A stretch of DNA of 64,000 nucleotides from Bartonella bovis 91-4 (lineage in GTDB: Bacteria; Pseudomonadota; Alphaproteobacteria; Rhizobiales; Rhizobiaceae). The notes under the pieces were generated by a model, which was not told the origin of the DNA, made no database searches, and worked only from the letters and a program-made list of their open reading frames with translations. Positions within the stretch are counted from its first letter, which is position 1. The number at the start of each line of letters is the position of its first letter. Made by a program: the position numbers and the translations under genes. The stretch is taken from positions 1,032,042 to 1,096,041 of the forward strand of contig NZ_CM001844.1 in NCBI RefSeq assembly GCF_000384965.1, written 5' to 3'. This document shows positions 10,542-53,055 of the stretch, in pieces.

Positions 10542-10980
10542 TTATAAGAGCTTGATATTAAAACTAAAATTTATCAGGCGTACTTACTTTTAGTGACTAC
10601 AATAAAAAGCTGTATAACTTTTTTACGATTTTTCAATATACATAACCACTTTTGAAATAACTATTTCAGTATTTTATTTTTATCATTCCAATAAATTTTA
10701 AATTCACTTTACACTCTCTTTGATCCAACAGAAAACAAGCCTATTTAGTCACTCTAGGCAAAGCTACGCTACGGTATAAGCTATTTTTAGTCTATTCCAT
10801 CAAAATTACTTTATATAAGTTATTCTACTAAATTATATGTCATTTAATAAAGTAAGACAAAAACGAATAATTATCGCTTTACTAGCACATTAAAAATCTT
10901 GAACTTATCAATAATGAAAAGATTTAAAATATTAACAATTCCCCTCTTTCCCAAAGACTGTTCTTCATCTATATTTAAAA
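10542..10980. other. gene-free spacer before ssrA
   Basis: About 440 AT-rich bases between the transporter terminator and the tmRNA gene. No coding region is visible. It should carry the ssrA promoter, though I cannot pick one out with confidence. Confidence 0.5.
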
Positions 10981-11300
10981 GGCTGGTTTATCAGCTATGG
11001 TAATAAATGGACAATGGAATAAGCCCATTGGACCCGGGGGCGGTACCCGGCGCCTCCACCAAAATATAATCAATAAAGCTTATACTTTGGTGGGGGCGAA
11101 ATAGGATCGACAAGGGTGTAAAGATTGCTCTTTTACTCGGCATTGTACCACCGTCATCGGACTAAATTAGTAGTTGCAAACGACAACTATGCGGAAGCAC
11201 GTCTCGCTGCTTAAGCAGTGCGAAGGCTTCAAATCAAGCCTTAAACCGTCGCAGGTTTAAGCGGGGTCCGGAGGCACCTGGCAACAGAAGCCTTCACTTT
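10981..11300 (+). ncRNA. ssrA: transfer-messenger RNA, permuted two-piece form
   Basis: Rescues stalled ribosomes and tags the nascent chain for proteolysis. The gene has the alphaproteobacterial permuted order. The acceptor piece comes first, with T arm CCGGG/CCCGG around a seven-base loop and the 3' end CGCCTCCACCA at 11051-11061. A short intervening segment follows (11062-11091). Then comes the coding piece, beginning GGGGGCG at 11092, which pairs with CGCCTCC to close the acceptor stem with one G-U pair. The tag frame 11176-11214 reads ANDNYAEARLAA and then TAA. A TTAAACC/GGTTTAA hairpin at 11239-11258 belongs to the pseudoknot region. Outer ends are estimates. The sspB adaptor gene follows 140 bases downstream. 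Confidence 0.93.
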
Positions 11301-26784: not shown

Positions 26785-28083
26785 CTAAAAACTCTCACGC
26801 AACCACTGACCAACACGCTGAAAATATCCACCCGTGTTTGTCGATAAATAATTCACTGCAGTTTGGACTGTTTTTTCTTCAAACCCCGCCAATTGAGGAT
26901 AAATTAACAATCCAACAGCAGATGAAAATGCCGCCCCTTTAGCAAAGGAAGGAAGCCTGGAAATCCCTAAAGGCCGCCCTACACGAACATTTCTCCCCAA
27001 TATACTACGTGCTATTTCTGGCAAACCCGTTAATTGGCTTGCTCCTCCGGTTAAAATAACACGCTTACCAATGATGTGACCAAAACCTGAACGGTTCAAA
27101 CAATCACGCATCATTTCTAATATTTCTTCAACACGCGCACGAATAATACGACCAAGAACAGCACATGGATACTGAACTTCATGACGCTCATTTCCAATTT
27201 CCGGCACATTAATCACCTTACGCTCATCACAATCTGCTGAAAACATTGAGCCATATACAACTTTTAAACGCTCAGCCTCTTCAATAGACATAGATAATCC
27301 CCGAGCAACATCGAGAGTTACATGATGCCCCCCAATTGCAAGTGCATCTGCATGAACAAATTTTCCTTCAGAAAACACAGAAAATGTCGTTGTTCCACCA
27401 CCAAAATCAATACATGCCGCTCCTAAACGCGCCTCATCATCGACTAAAACCGAAAGACCGCTAGCAAAAGGTGTTGCTACCATTGCCTCAACACTTAAAT
27501 GAGCACGGTTAATGCAGGCTTCTAAATTACGCAAAGGTGCTGTTTCCGCTGTCACAACATGTACATCCACACCAAATAACTCTCCCATCATCCCAACAGG
27601 ATCAGAAATTCCTCTATCTCCATCCAATGCATAAGACACTGGAACTGAATGCATAATATGACGTTCAGCCTTAAAAGCTTTACGCGAAACATCTGCTAAT
27701 ACCATACGCATATCACGTGTAGTAACTTTACGCCCACCCAAACGCACAACACCATTAATAAAAGCACTTTTCAACCGGCTCGAAGAAAAATTCACAATTA
27801 CCGAATCTACCACCAAACCAGCCATTTTTTCTGCCGCATCAACAGCCAAACGTATAGACTGTTCTGCCGCATACATATCCATCACAACACCAGATTTAAT
27901 ACCACGTGAACGTTGCACACCAAAACCTAAAACTTCCATAGAGTGTGTACGAGCATGTAAATGGTGTGTATGCTTTAAAGGATGTAAACAAGCAATAAGA
28001 CACACGACCTTACTTGAACCAACATCAAGAACCGTTAGAAAACGTGCTTTGCGCCCTGCGTTATGATGTGACCCAAGCAACAT
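26785..28083 (-). CDS. ftsA: cell division protein FtsA
   Basis: Actin-like ATPase that anchors FtsZ to the membrane and recruits later division proteins. Features seen: phosphate 1 loop VLDVGSSKVVCLIA, GLVVDSVIVNFSS, the SHS2-type 1c domain around KAFKAERHIMHSVPV, AACIDFGGGTTTFSVF, VILTGGASQLTGLPEIA, and a C-terminal amphipathic end WLRESF. Length 432 fits the family. Its ATG overlaps the ftsQ stop by one base, so expression is coupled. Confidence 0.96.
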   Translation of the reverse strand: MLLGSHHNAGRKARFLTVLDVGSSKVVCLIACLHPLKHTHHLHARTHSMEVLGFGVQRSRGIKSGVVMDMYAAEQSIRLAVDAAEKMAGLVVDSVIVNFSSSRLKSAFINGVVRLGGRKVTTRDMRMVLADVSRKAFKAERHIMHSVPVSYALDGDRGISDPVGMMGELFGVDVHVVTAETAPLRNLEACINRAHLSVEAMVATPFASGLSVLVDDEARLGAACIDFGGGTTTFSVFSEGKFVHADALAIGGHHVTLDVARGLSMSIEEAERLKVVYGSMFSADCDERKVINVPEIGNERHEVQYPCAVLGRIIRARVEEILEMMRDCLNRSGFGHIIGKRVILTGGASQLTGLPEIARSILGRNVRVGRPLGISRLPSFAKGAAFSSAVGLLIYPQLAGFEEKTVQTAVNYLSTNTGGYFQRVGQWLRESF

Positions 28084-29000
28084 TATACACCCCCCGCCTT
28101 TAAAACGCGCTCTTTTTCTGCCACAACAGCACGATGATGCACCAACGCTTCATCCGATAAAGAAACTGTTATCCGATCAGAAAGACGCAAATCAATACTT
28201 AAAACATCACGTGCAAAAAGATCTTCTGCCATACCTGTTTTAATAAGAGAAGAAAGGCTTTCAATAGCTCCCTTTTCAGGTAGCATAATACGCACCCCAT
28301 TATTTAGAATAATATCCCAACGCCGATCGCCCACACGCACATAAGCACTGATACGATTGCGCAACTGTGGATATACCCAAAGTTCTTGAATAAATAATTT
28401 TGCTGCATTTTGCGCACCTTGACCAACCACAAGAGGCAAATTCTGAACTAAACCCACCTGAAATGGAGCAATCACATATCCTGTATGATCAATAATATCC
28501 ATTACCCCATCATGTTGCCAAATGGCATATGGTTCACGCTCTATCACTGAAATACTCACCTGATTAGGATAAATCTTCTGAACATTAGCCGATTGAATCC
28601 AAGCTTGCTGCTCTAAAATAAAACGCGCTTTATTAACATCAAAACTAATAATTGATGGATAAGCATCAAGCCCTAAAATCTTCAAAATATCTTGTTTCGC
28701 TACACGCTTATTGCCATTCATATCGACATCAGTCACTATAAAACCAAAATTTAATGGCGCAGCTTTTATAATACCATCCATCTGACCATTAGATGAAATT
28801 CCATAAAGCGCAGAAAGAGAGAAAAAAAACAAAACAGCAAAAGAACCAAAATGACGAGGCACATAAATATTGACAATAAACTGAAATATAAACCGACGAA
28901 ACCGACGATAAAGACGCGGAAAAAATGGTGCTGACTGCACCATCAGAACATTTATTCTATCAACATTCAACGCATACACGACGCGTCCTCCGCTATCCAT
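28083..29000 (-). CDS. ftsQ: cell division protein FtsQ
   Basis: Bitopic divisome protein that links cytoplasmic and periplasmic components. One transmembrane segment (about residues 50-68, [18 protein letters not shown]) follows a basic, Arg-rich cytoplasmic tail; the POTRA domain starts near [21 protein letters not shown] and the beta domain follows ([20 protein letters not shown]). The frame begins inside the end of ddl (34 bases overlap); a later ATG at 28943 is an alternative start. Length 305 is normal for Rhizobiales. Confidence 0.93.
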
Positions 29001-43680: not shown

Positions 43681-44068
43681 TCAGTCGGCCTGTAAGCCGG
43701 GTTCTGTATGGTAAAGTTTACACTCTACATGGCAACCATTCATCTGGGACGGATGTTACCATCCGCCTCGTGCAACCTACCCAAATGACTCACCTGGAAA
43801 CTGGCTGCAAGTTAAGCCTTGCGCGTCATTTCTATTCGGTCTTGCTCCCGGTGGGGTTTACCTTGCCACACTCATTACTGAGTGCGCGGTGGGCTCTTAC
43901 CCCACCCTTTCACCCTTACCTATAAAAATAGGCGGTTTACTTTCTGTGGCACTTTCCCTAGGGTCACCCCCGCCGGGTGTTACCCGGCACCGTTTTTCCA
44001 TGGAGCCCGGACTTTCCTCACCTGCCATTTTTTAACACTAGACAAGCGCGGCTGCCCAGCCGACTGAC
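43681..44068 (-). ncRNA. rnpB: RNase P RNA, bacterial type A
   Basis: Catalytic RNA that trims tRNA 5' ends. The two ends form the P1 helix (TCAGTCGGC at the 5' end, GCCGACTGA at the 3' end). Near the 5' end the minus strand reads GAGGAAAGTCCGGGCTCC, the universal CR-I signature, and near the 3' end AACCCGGCTTACAGGC, the CR-V signature; CCCACCGCGCACTCAG lies in the middle. Length about 388 bases. It lies directly upstream of rsmH with the same orientation. Confidence 0.95.
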
Positions 44069-45503: not shown

Positions 45504-45764
45504 CTATTTATCACTCTGACCACTCGCAAGGGTAGAAACAATCGCATCTTGACGTACCTGCTTACAACGTTTCTTTCTTGATGAAGACTTATCTTTAAAA
45601 CATTCATTAAAACATCCAGCAAAGACGCTGCCACCCTTCTAGTCCACCTGGTGCGAAGAATTGGATTTACTAAATACAAATTGATAAACAAAAAAACTAG
45701 TTACCACGACGAATAATAAAAACAAAATGAAAATAAAAAGACAATACCAATGAAATTTTATCAT
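45504..45764 (-). pseudogene. small membrane-protein gene with an in-frame stop
   Basis: Starting at ATG 45764, the frame codes for a hydrophobic segment (WYCLFIFILFLLFVVV) and a short Ser-rich tail, then meets a TAG at 45639-45641. The same frame stays open for 44 more codons with a polar, Lys/Arg-rich sequence (KDKSSSRKKRCKQVRQDAIV, ending ASGQSDK and TAG at 45504). That suggests one gene of about 86 codons interrupted by a point mutation, or a genuine 41-residue peptide followed by chance. No homologue recognised; the ribosome site is weak. Confidence 0.35.
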
Positions 45765-45975: not shown

Positions 45976-46015
45976 AAATAAAAATAAAACCCGACTGAAG
46001 AACTCTTCAGTCGGG
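45976..46015 (-). terminator. Rho-independent terminator of the candidate small RNA
   Basis: Ten-pair stem (46015-46006 with 45999-45990), six-base loop, then a 15-base T-rich run on the minus strand. One of the strongest hairpins in the window, with no gene ending nearby: the closest minus-strand gene, ettA, ends 540 bases upstream. Confidence 0.9.
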
Positions 46016-46077
46016 TCAGACAATCTAGGGATCCACGCGGGGGAGGGGGGAGAGGTTCCCTGATTGCCTTATTACAT
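45978..46077 (-). ncRNA. candidate trans-acting small RNA with C-rich loop
   Basis: On the minus strand a perfect TATAAT (46083-46088) is followed about seven bases on by a roughly 100-base transcript. Its first hairpin pairs CAATC and AGGGA with TCCCT and GATTG (one bulged A), leaving a loop that carries CUCUCCCCCUCCCCC, able to pair with Shine-Dalgarno sequences. The second hairpin is a ten-pair GC-rich stem (CCCGACTGAA/TTCAGTCGGG) followed by TTTTATTTTTATTTT, a strong terminator. The layout resembles the alphaproteobacterial small RNAs with anti-Shine-Dalgarno loops; this is by analogy, and I cannot name an Rfam family. Confidence 0.7.
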
Positions 46078-46082
46078 CAACC

Positions 46083-46088
46083 ATTATA
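46083..46088 (-). promoter_or_regulatory. -10 box of the candidate small RNA
   Basis: Minus-strand TATAAT, a full match to the sigma-70 -10 consensus, at the right distance from the 5' base of the first hairpin. No good -35 hexamer is seen at 16-18 bases. Confidence 0.5.
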
Positions 46089-46551
46089 ATCGCTAATGCA
46101 ATGACTTCATTATGAAATAAAATATTTTAAACAACAAGAAATTCTTATCATCTCACCTAAAAAAGAGCAAAAAAATAACCATAAGCTTTGCAAAAATGGA
46201 AAAATTTAGGCAAAAAACATTTAAAACGATCCAATTTGAAGCAGTTTTACTCCAAAATGTGTTAATTAAATTCTTCTTAAAAATCTTAATCTTTAATATA
46301 AAATTACGGGAAACAATTTATTGCGACAAAAGTTTTAAAATAACAAATAGTTTTTATGGATCACATCCTAATAAACGGGCAAATTTTATCAATTAATTAA
46401 GAAACTTATTACAATCAAAATCCTTAATACCCCGCTCTATTAGCTCAAGTACCTATATTGCTCAAAATGGAAAGCACAAGTCTTAGACATTTTCTAAAAA
46501 CTATTATACTGATAAATTAGGAGTATAAATGCTCATATAAGAAATGCTGTG
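46089..46551. other. gene-free spacer after ettA
   Basis: AT-rich, without a supported gene. An open frame at 46196-46396 on the plus strand has no family likeness and no ribosome site. Confidence 0.5.
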
Positions 46552-48201
46552 TTAACGGGTGAGAGGTTTATAATTGACACGTCTAAGATTGATAGCATCT
46601 GGACCAAGGCGACGAAGTTTATCAGCCTCATATTCAGCAAAATTGCCTTCAAACCATTCCACATGACCATTACCTTCAAACGCTAAAATATGGGTAGCCA
46701 ACCGATCAAGAAACATACGATCATGTGATATCACAACTGCACAACCAGCAAAATTCTCCAGCGCATCTTCTAACGCACCTAATGTTTCTGTATCAAGATC
46801 GTTTGTAGGTTCGTCAAGAAGAAGAACATTGCCTCCACTTTTTAAAAGTTTAGCTAAATGAACACGGTTGCGCTGCCCTCCCGATAAATTCACCACCTTT
46901 TGTTGCTGATCTGCGCCTTTAAAGTTAAATGCACCACAATAAGCACGGCTATTCATCTCATATTTGCCTAACTTAATAATGTCATCTCCACCAGAGATTT
47001 CCTCCCAAACAGTCTTATTTCCTGCTAATGTATCACGATTCTGATCAATATAGCTCATCTGAACCGTTTCTCCAATACGTACTGTACCTGAATCCGGCTG
47101 TTCCTGTCCTGTTAACATTTTAAATAAAGTAGACTTCCCCGCACCATTAGCACCAATAACCCCCACAATTCCACCGGCAGGAAGCTTGAAAGAAAGAGAA
47201 TTGATTAATGTACGATCACCATATGCTTTTGACAAATTATCAACTTCAATCACAACCTGTCCCAATCTTTCGCCAACTGGTATAATAATTTGCGCATCCC
47301 CAGGACGGCGTTCACGCGCAGCCTGAACTAATTCATCATAAGCCCTGATACGAGCTTTTGATTTTGTTTGACGTGCCTTCGGACTAGAAGCTATCCATTC
47401 CTTTTCACGTGCCAATGCACGTTGACGAGCAGCTTCTTCACGGCCCTCTTGTGCCATACGTTTAGCTTTAGCACTCAAATAAGCAGAATAATTTCCTTCA
47501 TAAGGGATACCTTTACCGCGATCTAATTCTAATATCCAACCCGTTACATTATCGAGAAAATAACGGTCATGCGTAATCAGAAGTACTGCACCTGGATATT
47601 CACGTAAATGTCTTTCAAGCCAAGCTGTAGTTTCAGCATCTAAATGGTTTGTCGGTTCATCTAGAAGCAATAAATCAGGTTTTGACAAAAGCAATTTACA
47701 AAGCGCAACACGCCGCCTTTCACCACCTGAAAGTTTTGTTACATCCTCTTCCCCCGGCGGGCAACTAAGAGCGGCCATAGCCATTTCTACTTGATTGTCT
47801 AAATCCCAAAGATTCTGGCTATCAATAATATCTTGAAGTTTAGCACTCTCATCGGCTGTTTCATCACTGTAATTCATCATCAGTTCATTATAGCGATCTA
47901 AAATTGCCTGCTTATCTGCAATCCCTTCCATCACATTACCCCTCACATCCTTACTTGGATCAAGAACAGGTTCTTGTGGGAGATAACCACAACGTGCTCC
48001 TTCAGCAAGCCATGCTTCTCCTGTATATTCCTTATCTAACCCACTCATAATACGTAAAATCGTCGACTTACCTGCACCATTCGGCCCTAAAATACCAATC
48101 TTAGCATCTGGATAAAAAGATAAATGAATATTTTCCAAAATTTTCTTATTACCGTAAATCTTATTGACCCCAGCCATATGATAGATAAATTGACGTGCCA
48201 T
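46552..48201 (-). CDS. ettA: energy-dependent translational throttle protein EttA (ABC-F)
   Basis: Soluble ABC-F ATPase that binds the ribosomal E site and gates the first elongation step by energy state. Two nucleotide-binding domains: Walker A GPNGAGKST and GANGAGKST, signatures LSGGERRRVALC and LSGGQRNRVHLA, Walker B LLLLDEPTNHLD and VLLLDEPTNDLD. The Arg/Lys-rich linker with YLSAKAKRMAQEGREEAARQR and the N terminus MARQFIYHMAGVNK match EttA rather than Uup. The ATG at 48201, preceded by AAAGAG, gives 549 residues; the frame opens earlier at 48225. Stands alone. Confidence 0.95.
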   Translation of the reverse strand: MARQFIYHMAGVNKIYGNKKILENIHLSFYPDAKIGILGPNGAGKSTILRIMSGLDKEYTGEAWLAEGARCGYLPQEPVLDPSKDVRGNVMEGIADKQAILDRYNELMMNYSDETADESAKLQDIIDSQNLWDLDNQVEMAMAALSCPPGEEDVTKLSGGERRRVALCKLLLSKPDLLLLDEPTNHLDAETTAWLERHLREYPGAVLLITHDRYFLDNVTGWILELDRGKGIPYEGNYSAYLSAKAKRMAQEGREEAARQRALAREKEWIASSPKARQTKSKARIRAYDELVQAARERRPGDAQIIIPVGERLGQVVIEVDNLSKAYGDRTLINSLSFKLPAGGIVGVIGANGAGKSTLFKMLTGQEQPDSGTVRIGETVQMSYIDQNRDTLAGNKTVWEEISGGDDIIKLGKYEMNSRAYCGAFNFKGADQQQKVVNLSGGQRNRVHLAKLLKSGGNVLLLDEPTNDLDTETLGALEDALENFAGCAVVISHDRMFLDRLATHILAFEGNGHVEWFEGNFAEYEADKLRRLGPDAINLRRVNYKPLTR

Positions 48202-51024: not shown

Positions 51025-51561
51025 GTGGCACGTCCTGAAACTGAAGCAAAAACTGTATTTGGAAAACGTTTACGTCATGTACGCCTCGCTTTAGGTGATC
51101 CATCACGTGAAACATTAGCAAAAAACTTTAGCATGACAAAAAACTCCATCGCCTTTTATGAACGTGGAGAAAGAGAACCTAATCTTAGCGTATTGCAAGC
51201 ATATCGCACATTGTATGGAGTCAACATTAATTGGCTTTTAACTGGACAAGGAAAAATGTTTGACACCGAATGCACTAGAAGTGAATTCGATTGGAATTAT
51301 TTTATTAAAAAAGTTGAAACAATTGAAGATATTCTTACCAAGAATGACCATAATGATACAGTAAATCAAAAAAAGATTGAAAATTCTTATGAAAAGTTAC
51401 AAAAATACCTTCTAACACAAGGCGTACCTAATGACCTCAACCCAAAAGCGCTTACTTCTTTGGTCAATATGAAAGCAAATATGGCTAATTCTTATGCCCT
51501 TAGCTTGTTTATTGATTTACTCATTCGAAGCATATCGCACAAAGAAACAACTACTAATTAA
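51025..51561 (+). CDS. XRE-family helix-turn-helix regulator
   Basis: 178 residues. The N-terminal 75 form a Cro/CI-type DNA-binding domain: TVFGKRLRHVRLALGDPSRETLAKNFSMTKNSIAFYERGEREPN, with helix-turn-helix about residues 28-50, then YGVNINWLLTGQGKMF, a common end of phage-repressor-like domains. The C-terminal half is helical and polar with no recognised domain and no LexA-type peptidase residues. The start is GTG at 51025, eight bases after GAGGGAG. It borders 1.4 kb of decaying DNA, so it may be a leftover of a prophage or a domesticated regulator. Target genes unknown. Confidence 0.85.
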   Translation: MARPETEAKTVFGKRLRHVRLALGDPSRETLAKNFSMTKNSIAFYERGEREPNLSVLQAYRTLYGVNINWLLTGQGKMFDTECTRSEFDWNYFIKKVETIEDILTKNDHNDTVNQKKIENSYEKLQKYLLTQGVPNDLNPKALTSLVNMKANMANSYALSLFIDLLIRSISHKETTTN

Positions 51562-52978: not shown

Positions 52979-53055
52979 TGGTGGGCCCGGAGGGACTCGA
53001 ACCCCCAACCAAGCGGTTATGAGCCGCTGGCTCTAACCAATTGAGCTACAGGCCC
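52979..53055 (-). tRNA. tRNA with anticodon CAU, tRNA-Met or more likely tRNA-Ile2
   Basis: A full 77-base cloverleaf including an encoded CCA. Acceptor stem GGGCCTG/CGGGCCC with one G-U pair, D stem GCTC/GAGC, anticodon stem AGCGG/CCGCT around CTCATAA (anticodon at 53019-53021), T stem GGGGG/CCCTC around TTCGAGT. C4-G69 and C5-G68 pairs, and the CGCTTGGT segment after the anticodon, match the isoleucine tRNA whose C34 is changed to lysidine by TilS, rather than elongator methionine tRNA. It is not the initiator, since the anticodon stem lacks three G-C pairs. Automated tools would label it tRNA-Met. Confidence 0.93.

Follow-up and report, generated by a model that had tools for sequence, protein, structure and literature searches.

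A predicted small RNA with an exposed C-rich loop is conserved in the Bartonella genomes examined

The RNA gene and its neighbourhood

The window, by which we mean the whole analysed stretch of 64,000 nucleotides from Bartonella bovis 91-4, carries on its minus strand a stand-alone RNA gene, in which a strong terminator comes after a hairpin with a C-rich loop. Upstream on this strand, the nearest recognised gene is ettA, which ends at 46552, 450 bp before the inferred start of the RNA, and the next recognised gene downstream is rnpB. The statement in the first-pass annotation that no gene ends nearby therefore holds only loosely. Two further RNA genes of the window are a tmRNA gene (10943-11298, plus strand) and a tRNA gene (52982-53055, minus strand). 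The RNA gene and the region preceding it consist of these parts:

45977..46102, minus strand: small RNA of about 126 nt, with a putative 5' end placed by means of the promoter box and the beginning of SL1
46071..46102, minus strand: SL1, 5' hairpin of variable sequence (fold and alignment)
46018..46069, minus strand: SL2, hairpin presenting the C-rich loop (folds and alignment)
46035..46053, minus strand: unpaired C-rich loop UCUCCCCCCUCCCCCGCGU, the presumed seed (folds)
45988..46017, minus strand: SL3, intrinsic terminator stem-loop of 13 pairs (terminator scan and fold)
46083..46088, minus strand: TATAAT of the first-pass annotation, within the upper part of SL1 and shared by 3 of the 51 aligned RNAs
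46110..46115, minus strand: putative -10 box TCATAA, [CT]CATA[GT] in most other loci (pattern across loci)
46133..46138, minus strand: putative -35 box CTTGTT (pattern across loci)
46136..46146, minus strand: inverted repeat AAGAA-N-TTCTT overlapping the -35 box, a possible operator

Folding of the 126-nt RNA gave -53.6 kcal/mol (z -7.73), and none of 200 shuffled sequences was as stable; the same was true of 200 shuffles of a 100-nt piece (z -5.85). A covariance model, R1, matched positions 45982-46102 of the window with 121.4 bits. The bulged hairpin GGCAAUCAGGGAACC...GGAUCCCUAGAUUGUC that had been noticed before is present on the minus strand (46069-45977 region) with a terminator after it. 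Its loop does contain CUCUCCCCCCUCCCCC, with six C before the last U where five had been counted, and the terminator has 13 pairs in both the fold and the scan instead of the ten reported, with a U-rich tail reaching to about 45977. Because SL1 stands 5' of the C-rich hairpin, the earlier length estimate of about 100 bases was extended to about 125 nt. A reading of the locus as coding sequence was rejected because the loop lengths do not stay in one reading frame: the remainder is 0, 1 or 2 in 20, 11 and 17 of 48 cases, respectively, so that a peptide would be out of frame between species.

In four relatives (L081, L082, L083 and L084) a small frame resembling a membrane protein (94-135 aa) follows on the same strand, within 75-300 nt of the RNA, and L086 has a similar small frame on the opposite strand. 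The counterpart in the window (45639-45764, minus strand) has only 41 aa left and is possibly a decayed gene. Further downstream, rnpB was found on the same strand, wherever inside the fetched stretch, in 3 of the first 52 loci and in 12 of 20 longer loci.

The protein gene upstream of the RNA changes between lineages. As in the window, ettA is the nearest recognised same-strand upstream gene in L081, L083, L084 and L085; metF is the nearest upstream gene in L067, L072, L076, L078, L079 and L080, and L074 has neither. An ArsR/SmtB-methyltransferase-like frame precedes metF in L067, L072, L078 and L079, and L082 has an ArsR-like frame without metF. These assignments come from domain scans of the frames of L080 and L067 and, for the other neighbours, from inspection of the printed starts by eye. 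In six loci examined from the clade of the window, metF was not adjacent to the RNA.

The neighbours matter for the question of whether the RNA is a released 3' end (terminator or 3' UTR) of the upstream gene, which would be ettA in the window and metF in the divergent clade. We regard this as very unlikely. It is true that the window and some relatives have ettA ahead of the RNA in the same orientation, and that metF lies 153-636 nt upstream in five of seven divergent loci examined and 1.8 kb upstream in a sixth. However, the upstream gene varies by lineage and may be about 2 kb away, the promoter box directly before the RNA is conserved, and the interval after metF in seven outgroup stretches lacks such an RNA.

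Promoter and start site

The first-pass annotation had used a TATAAT as promoter and marker of the 5' end. The motif is indeed there, but we rejected it because it is not conserved and lies within SL1; it is probably not a promoter. From comparison of the loci, CTTGnn-N17-[CT]CATAn is the better candidate. This pattern, or its variant with T.ATAT as the second box, was found ahead of SL1 in 62 of 67 loci, including 12 of 14 in the divergent clade, compared with 2 of 1249 random 70-nt stretches from the same loci, where it should be kept in mind that the pattern was derived from the very loci counted, the divergent ones included. Two of the five loci missing it, L048 and L044, have the boxes closer together in the printed sequence. 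Of the 62 loci with a box, 51 have the end of the -10 box at a distance of 7 nt from the start of the model. The block AAGAATTTCTTGTTGTTTAAAA...CATA is one of the best-conserved segments in 48 genomes; conservation extends over the promoter box, the RNA and its terminator and drops outside this unit. We infer that the predicted RNA is transcribed, and its start was set at about 46102 because of the upstream box and the rarity of TATAAT among the aligned RNAs. A scan for E. coli-type promoters listed neither TATAAT nor the proposed box, which deviates from the E. coli consensus.

The candidate box was also compared with heat-shock (RpoH) promoters. Upstream of groES, 14 Bartonella genomes show CTTGACAT and a box of the TATAT or TATCT type, together with a CIRCE-like repeat. 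Because groES has CTTG with such spacing in all 14, we took the box before the RNA for ordinary promoter geometry and did not retain the assignment to RpoH. A sigma32 promoter is not distinguishable from such a box (PMC3616915, PMC4843759).

The arms of the AAGAA-N-TTCTT repeat are near-invariant in 48 genomes, with a variable centre base, and AAGAA.TTCTTG occurs in 46 of 67 loci; none of the 12 printed upstream stretches from divergent genomes shows the repeat. Judging by its sequence and position, it could be an operator.

Conservation within Bartonella

At E 0.001, R1 gave one match per genome in 71 of 71 Bartonella genomes, with scores down to 43-74 bits in the 14 most divergent ones. At E 1 a second match appeared in some genomes, which was mostly the same terminator on the opposite strand. 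A BLAST search with 151 bases had matches in 51 of 61 genomes of the genus.

For alignment A1, 51 RNAs from 52 loci were used (L052, a weak second match of one genome, was excluded), and a consensus structure of 38 pairs was supplied, with 11 pairs in SL1, 14 in SL2 and 13 in SL3. Pairing was possible in 96.9% of 1900 cells, against 92.4% for shuffled columns and no more than 47.4% for slid versions, compensatory double changes were present in 21 of the 38 pairs, and none of 500 shuffles attained any of five measures; these figures favour the structure, because it was read from the same sequences and the shuffles ignore relatedness. Among the three hairpins, SL1 has double changes in 8 of 11 pairs (93.4% of cells paired), SL2 in 5 of its pairs (98.3% of cells paired) and SL3 in 8 of 13. 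When 12 divergent RNAs were folded singly, SL2 formed in 11, the exception being L077, and SL1 was absent from three (L074, L076 and L077).

Alignment across the genus, which had been suggested as a check, thus found both loop and stems conserved, with compensatory changes. The central proposal of the first pass, a separate, conserved gene for a small RNA that exposes a C-rich loop, is upheld by the structure, by the matches in every genome searched and by the promoter box.

Distribution outside the genus and origin of the gene

Searches with R1 beyond the genus were carried out at three levels. In the order, 2 of 297 genomes matched, both of them Bartonella. Among relatives, 26 of 41 matched at E 1; 25 of these are Bartonella, and the other (G071) had an E value of 0.035. 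In the family, 28 of 394 matched at E 0.1, 8 of them Bartonella and 20 outside the genus, of which two were below 0.001. The outside matches of the family search that were printed (8 of 12 loci fetched) are compatible with a terminator, in some cases preceded by a hairpin, and have no C-rich SL2 loop. Since scoring was limited to 9-12 candidates per genome in the order and family searches, and to 87 in the relatives search, a strongly diverged relative could be missed. The exact SL2-loop pattern, which would miss the divergent Bartonella clade, was found in 37 stretches of the GTDB 220 species genomes, all titled Bartonella.

The region around rnpB was inspected separately. With filters off, a scan of 29 outgroups returned three weak matches (E 0.067-0.87), one of which, in L114 (E 0.5), overlaps the positions of the SL2 loop and was taken as chance. 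With default filters, 18 outgroup stretches upstream of rnpB (312,698 bases) contained no R1 match to E 10. Seven of these 18 stretches include metF; in the seven intervals after it, C-runs of at least five were found in two, none of them in an SL2-like loop by eye.

At the search sensitivity applied, the RNA is confined to Bartonella, with no convincing copy elsewhere. As the outgroup stretches upstream of rnpB are without such an RNA, we place the origin of the gene, or of its recognisable form, most likely on the Bartonella branch. A locus that holds the gene in Bartonella and no recognisable one in outgroups, between the same metF-mltB neighbours, would be a suitable case for following the birth of an sRNA gene. 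The RNA is probably a regulator special to Bartonella, since no genome of the genus that was examined lacks it and other genera gave no convincing copy; if transcribed, it is a candidate core regulator in bacteria that pass between arthropods and mammals. With the revised promoter, 5' end and structure, Northern probes, deletions and target capture should be straightforward to design.

The C-rich loop and its possible partners

What is constant across the RNAs is a GGGA/UCCC stem together with a C-run followed by GC, inside a large loop. The C-run of 5-14 and the GC after it are present in 51 of 51 aligned RNAs, while CCUCC is found in the loop of 42 and CCUCCUCCC in that of 34. All 12 divergent sequences printed are without CCUCC, and their loop holds CCCCCCGC. 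The earlier label of an anti-Shine-Dalgarno loop is thus apt for a common element of the loop, but not for its invariant part. In the window, which has a G+C content of 0.367, the C-rich stretch is the sole site at which 13 or more bases of a 16-mer are C, or 13 or more are G.

The length of the C-tract varies with lineage (5-14 C), and records that bear one species name also differ in it: it is 12 (L204) and 10 (L231) in B. tribocorum, and 11 and 12 C in two B. queenslandensis records (L206, L236). One could imagine that the seed is a slippery C-tract, in an RNA born at the base of Bartonella, and that slippage tunes or switches the strength of a whole regulon. We consider this quite unlikely; if true, it would be phase variation that operates via an sRNA rather than a protein gene.

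The interpretation that we favour, with moderate confidence, is a genus-wide sRNA gene with its own sigma70-type promoter and the three stem-loops SL1, SL2 and SL3, which would repress in trans by pairing of its loop with G-rich sites. Transcription from this promoter would yield an RNA of about 125 nt, in which SL2 would present the C-rich seed in a large loop. The loop may then pair in trans with G-rich sites at or near the ribosome-binding sites of several mRNAs, and the pairing would block their translation in the manner of sX13 and the alpha-r14 RNAs. Trans action, base pairing and repression are all suggested by these precedents, and pairing with mRNAs is held most likely because of the analogy, not because of target evidence.

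Target prediction against ribosome sites did not single out the genes named in the first pass. Among 41 genes of the window, five had at least six consecutive bases complementary to the loop, compared with about 3.1 expected from shuffled loops, which is within chance. The GGGAGG before bamD is kept in only the 2 closest of 20 relatives (L183, L184); the others have GGAGG, GAGG, GGAAGG or similar, so that the site is mostly an ordinary, changing ribosome-binding site of the GGAGG type. The second gene, labelled XRE-type in the earlier annotation (51025-51561, plus strand), has GAGGGAG ahead of a GTG start.

Another candidate was ftsA (26785-28083, minus strand), with GGCGGGGGGUG before its start (28084-28100) and seven bases complementary to the loop. 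It was rejected: besides the window, one of 20 other genomes (L184) has GCGGGGG ahead of the start codon, and three (L183, L184 and L193) have at least five G there, so that the site is not conserved. In the genome of the window GCGGGGG has 45 sites, fewer than the 131 of a reversed control, and of the 30 sites inspected, one, that of ftsA, is by our judgement in a clear ribosome-binding position. RNase P RNA was tried as a partner as well, since rnpB contains GGCGGGGG (43967-43973, minus strand), which is complementary to the loop. The RNase P RNAs of L074 and L079 have GGCGAGGG although the C-run is kept there, and GGCGGGGG is also frequent in outgroup RNase P RNAs. We rejected this partner because motif and C-run are not kept together and the motif is common in outgroups too.

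That no target emerges for the loop would also suit a different function, in which a protein (or the ribosome) binds the C-rich loop and the RNA serves as a decoy instead of an antisense regulator. A near-pure C-run with a length varying from 5 to 14 fits a protein reading poly-C better than a specific antisense seed. On the other hand, a single such loop in each RNA, from one gene in each genome, makes a small sink, and we know of no candidate C-binding protein in Bartonella. On balance we think a decoy rather unlikely.

Comparison with known RNAs

No Rfam family reached its cut-off on the RNA of the window or of 11 relatives. The covariance check proposed earlier, against Rfam ar14, ar15 and ar45, gave no match to E 10 in the window region. 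The best Rfam score was that of anti-hemB, Burkholderia RNA 7 (RF02837), which shares the order of a hairpin with a C-rich loop and then a terminator. It scored 21.0 bits in the window and 30.3 bits in the best of 11 relatives (L037), far below the gathering score of 49.5, and the matching letters are chiefly those of the terminator and CCUCCC.

The alpha-r14 or cuckoo RNAs (NfeR1, SmelA075, SmelA099) resemble the Bartonella RNA in being Alphaproteobacterial and in having a loop of the CCUCCUCCC type, as in two thirds of our aligned RNAs, and a sigma70-type promoter preceded by a conserved stretch. The latter is described for NfeR1 in PMC10746234, and blocking of ribosome-binding sites by the loop has been proposed for SmelA075 in the parts seen of PMC3927594 and PMC10746234. 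One might therefore ask whether our RNA is a reduced member of this group. As far as the excerpts of the same two papers go, the group is characterised by three or four hairpins that share their loop (three in PMC10746234) and by several copies per genome. The Bartonella RNA, in contrast, has one C-rich hairpin and one match per genome in 71 genomes; the loops of SL1 and SL3 are not C-rich in the 51 aligned and 12 divergent RNAs printed, and the latter 12 lack CCUCC. An Rfam match of the alpha-r14 type was found neither to E 10 in the window region nor to E 1 in the 11 relatives. Membership fails on the features tested, and we judge it highly improbable.

EcpR1/SmelC291 is likewise a trans-acting sRNA of Rhizobiales with a GC-rich loop, but the loop is UCCGCCGCAUCU and the neighbour is the gene of ribosomal protein L33 (PMC4414408, in excerpt). 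UCCGCCGCAUCU was not found in the sequence of the Bartonella RNA, and the available part of PMC3927594 describes the family as differentially missing from several families, e.g. Bartonellaceae.

Our literature searches on Bartonella sRNAs gave PMC7717549, PMC5387305 and the review PMC8070961. The Brt RNAs of B. henselae are, like the RNA described here, Bartonella-restricted, noncoding and strongly structured. In the excerpts of PMC5387305 they differ in being 194-203 nt long and present in nine copies in B. henselae, each before a helix-turn-helix gene, and they were not found in B. bacilliformis, whereas the C-rich-loop RNA is present in strain Ver097 (L205). The Brt layout of about 200 nt before a helix-turn-helix (Trp) gene does not fit an RNA of about 125 nt that no such gene follows in the window. 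Nor did we see one by eye in 13 relatives among the first two downstream frames of at least 90 aa, most of which were judged without a domain scan.

Wachter and others reported 160 sRNAs in B. bacilliformis, with 57 of 153 new ones intergenic (PMC7717549, in part), and the C-rich-loop RNA may well be among them. One candidate is BbsR9, an RNA that binds in vitro to the mRNAs of ftsH, nuoF and gcvT. According to the portions of that paper available, BbsR9 is intergenic, conserved in several Bartonella species, equipped with a predicted sigma70 promoter and an intrinsic terminator, and binds through GC-rich stem-loop parts. However, it is one of five sRNAs that these portions call widespread in Bartonella and therefore one of several possibilities. 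In two B. bacilliformis-type genomes, moreover, the starts of ftsH, nuoF and gcvT did not rise above resampled ones (0.195-0.81), a weak test, in which the best of 18 comparisons was nuoF in G053 (0.065) and the loop of G008 was cut far too wide. We consider the identity of the two RNAs unlikely. BbsR14 and three other B. bacilliformis sRNAs contain CCTCCT in the available text of the same paper; the RNA of L037 is without CCTCCT and does not fit them.

In its presumed way of working the RNA resembles sX13 of Xanthomonas, where the comparison concerns how such RNAs act and not a family by descent. As described in the accessible part of PMC3771888, sX13 is an intergenic RNA of 115 nt with stable stems and C-rich loops, which repress mRNAs with G-rich motifs near their start codons. 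It has three such loops with 4-5 C each, compared with the single loop of the Bartonella RNA, in which at least four consecutive C occupy the apical loop in 51 of 51 cases (5-14 C). With its promoter and 5' end revised, the Bartonella RNA would join a known kind of regulators with C-rich loops.
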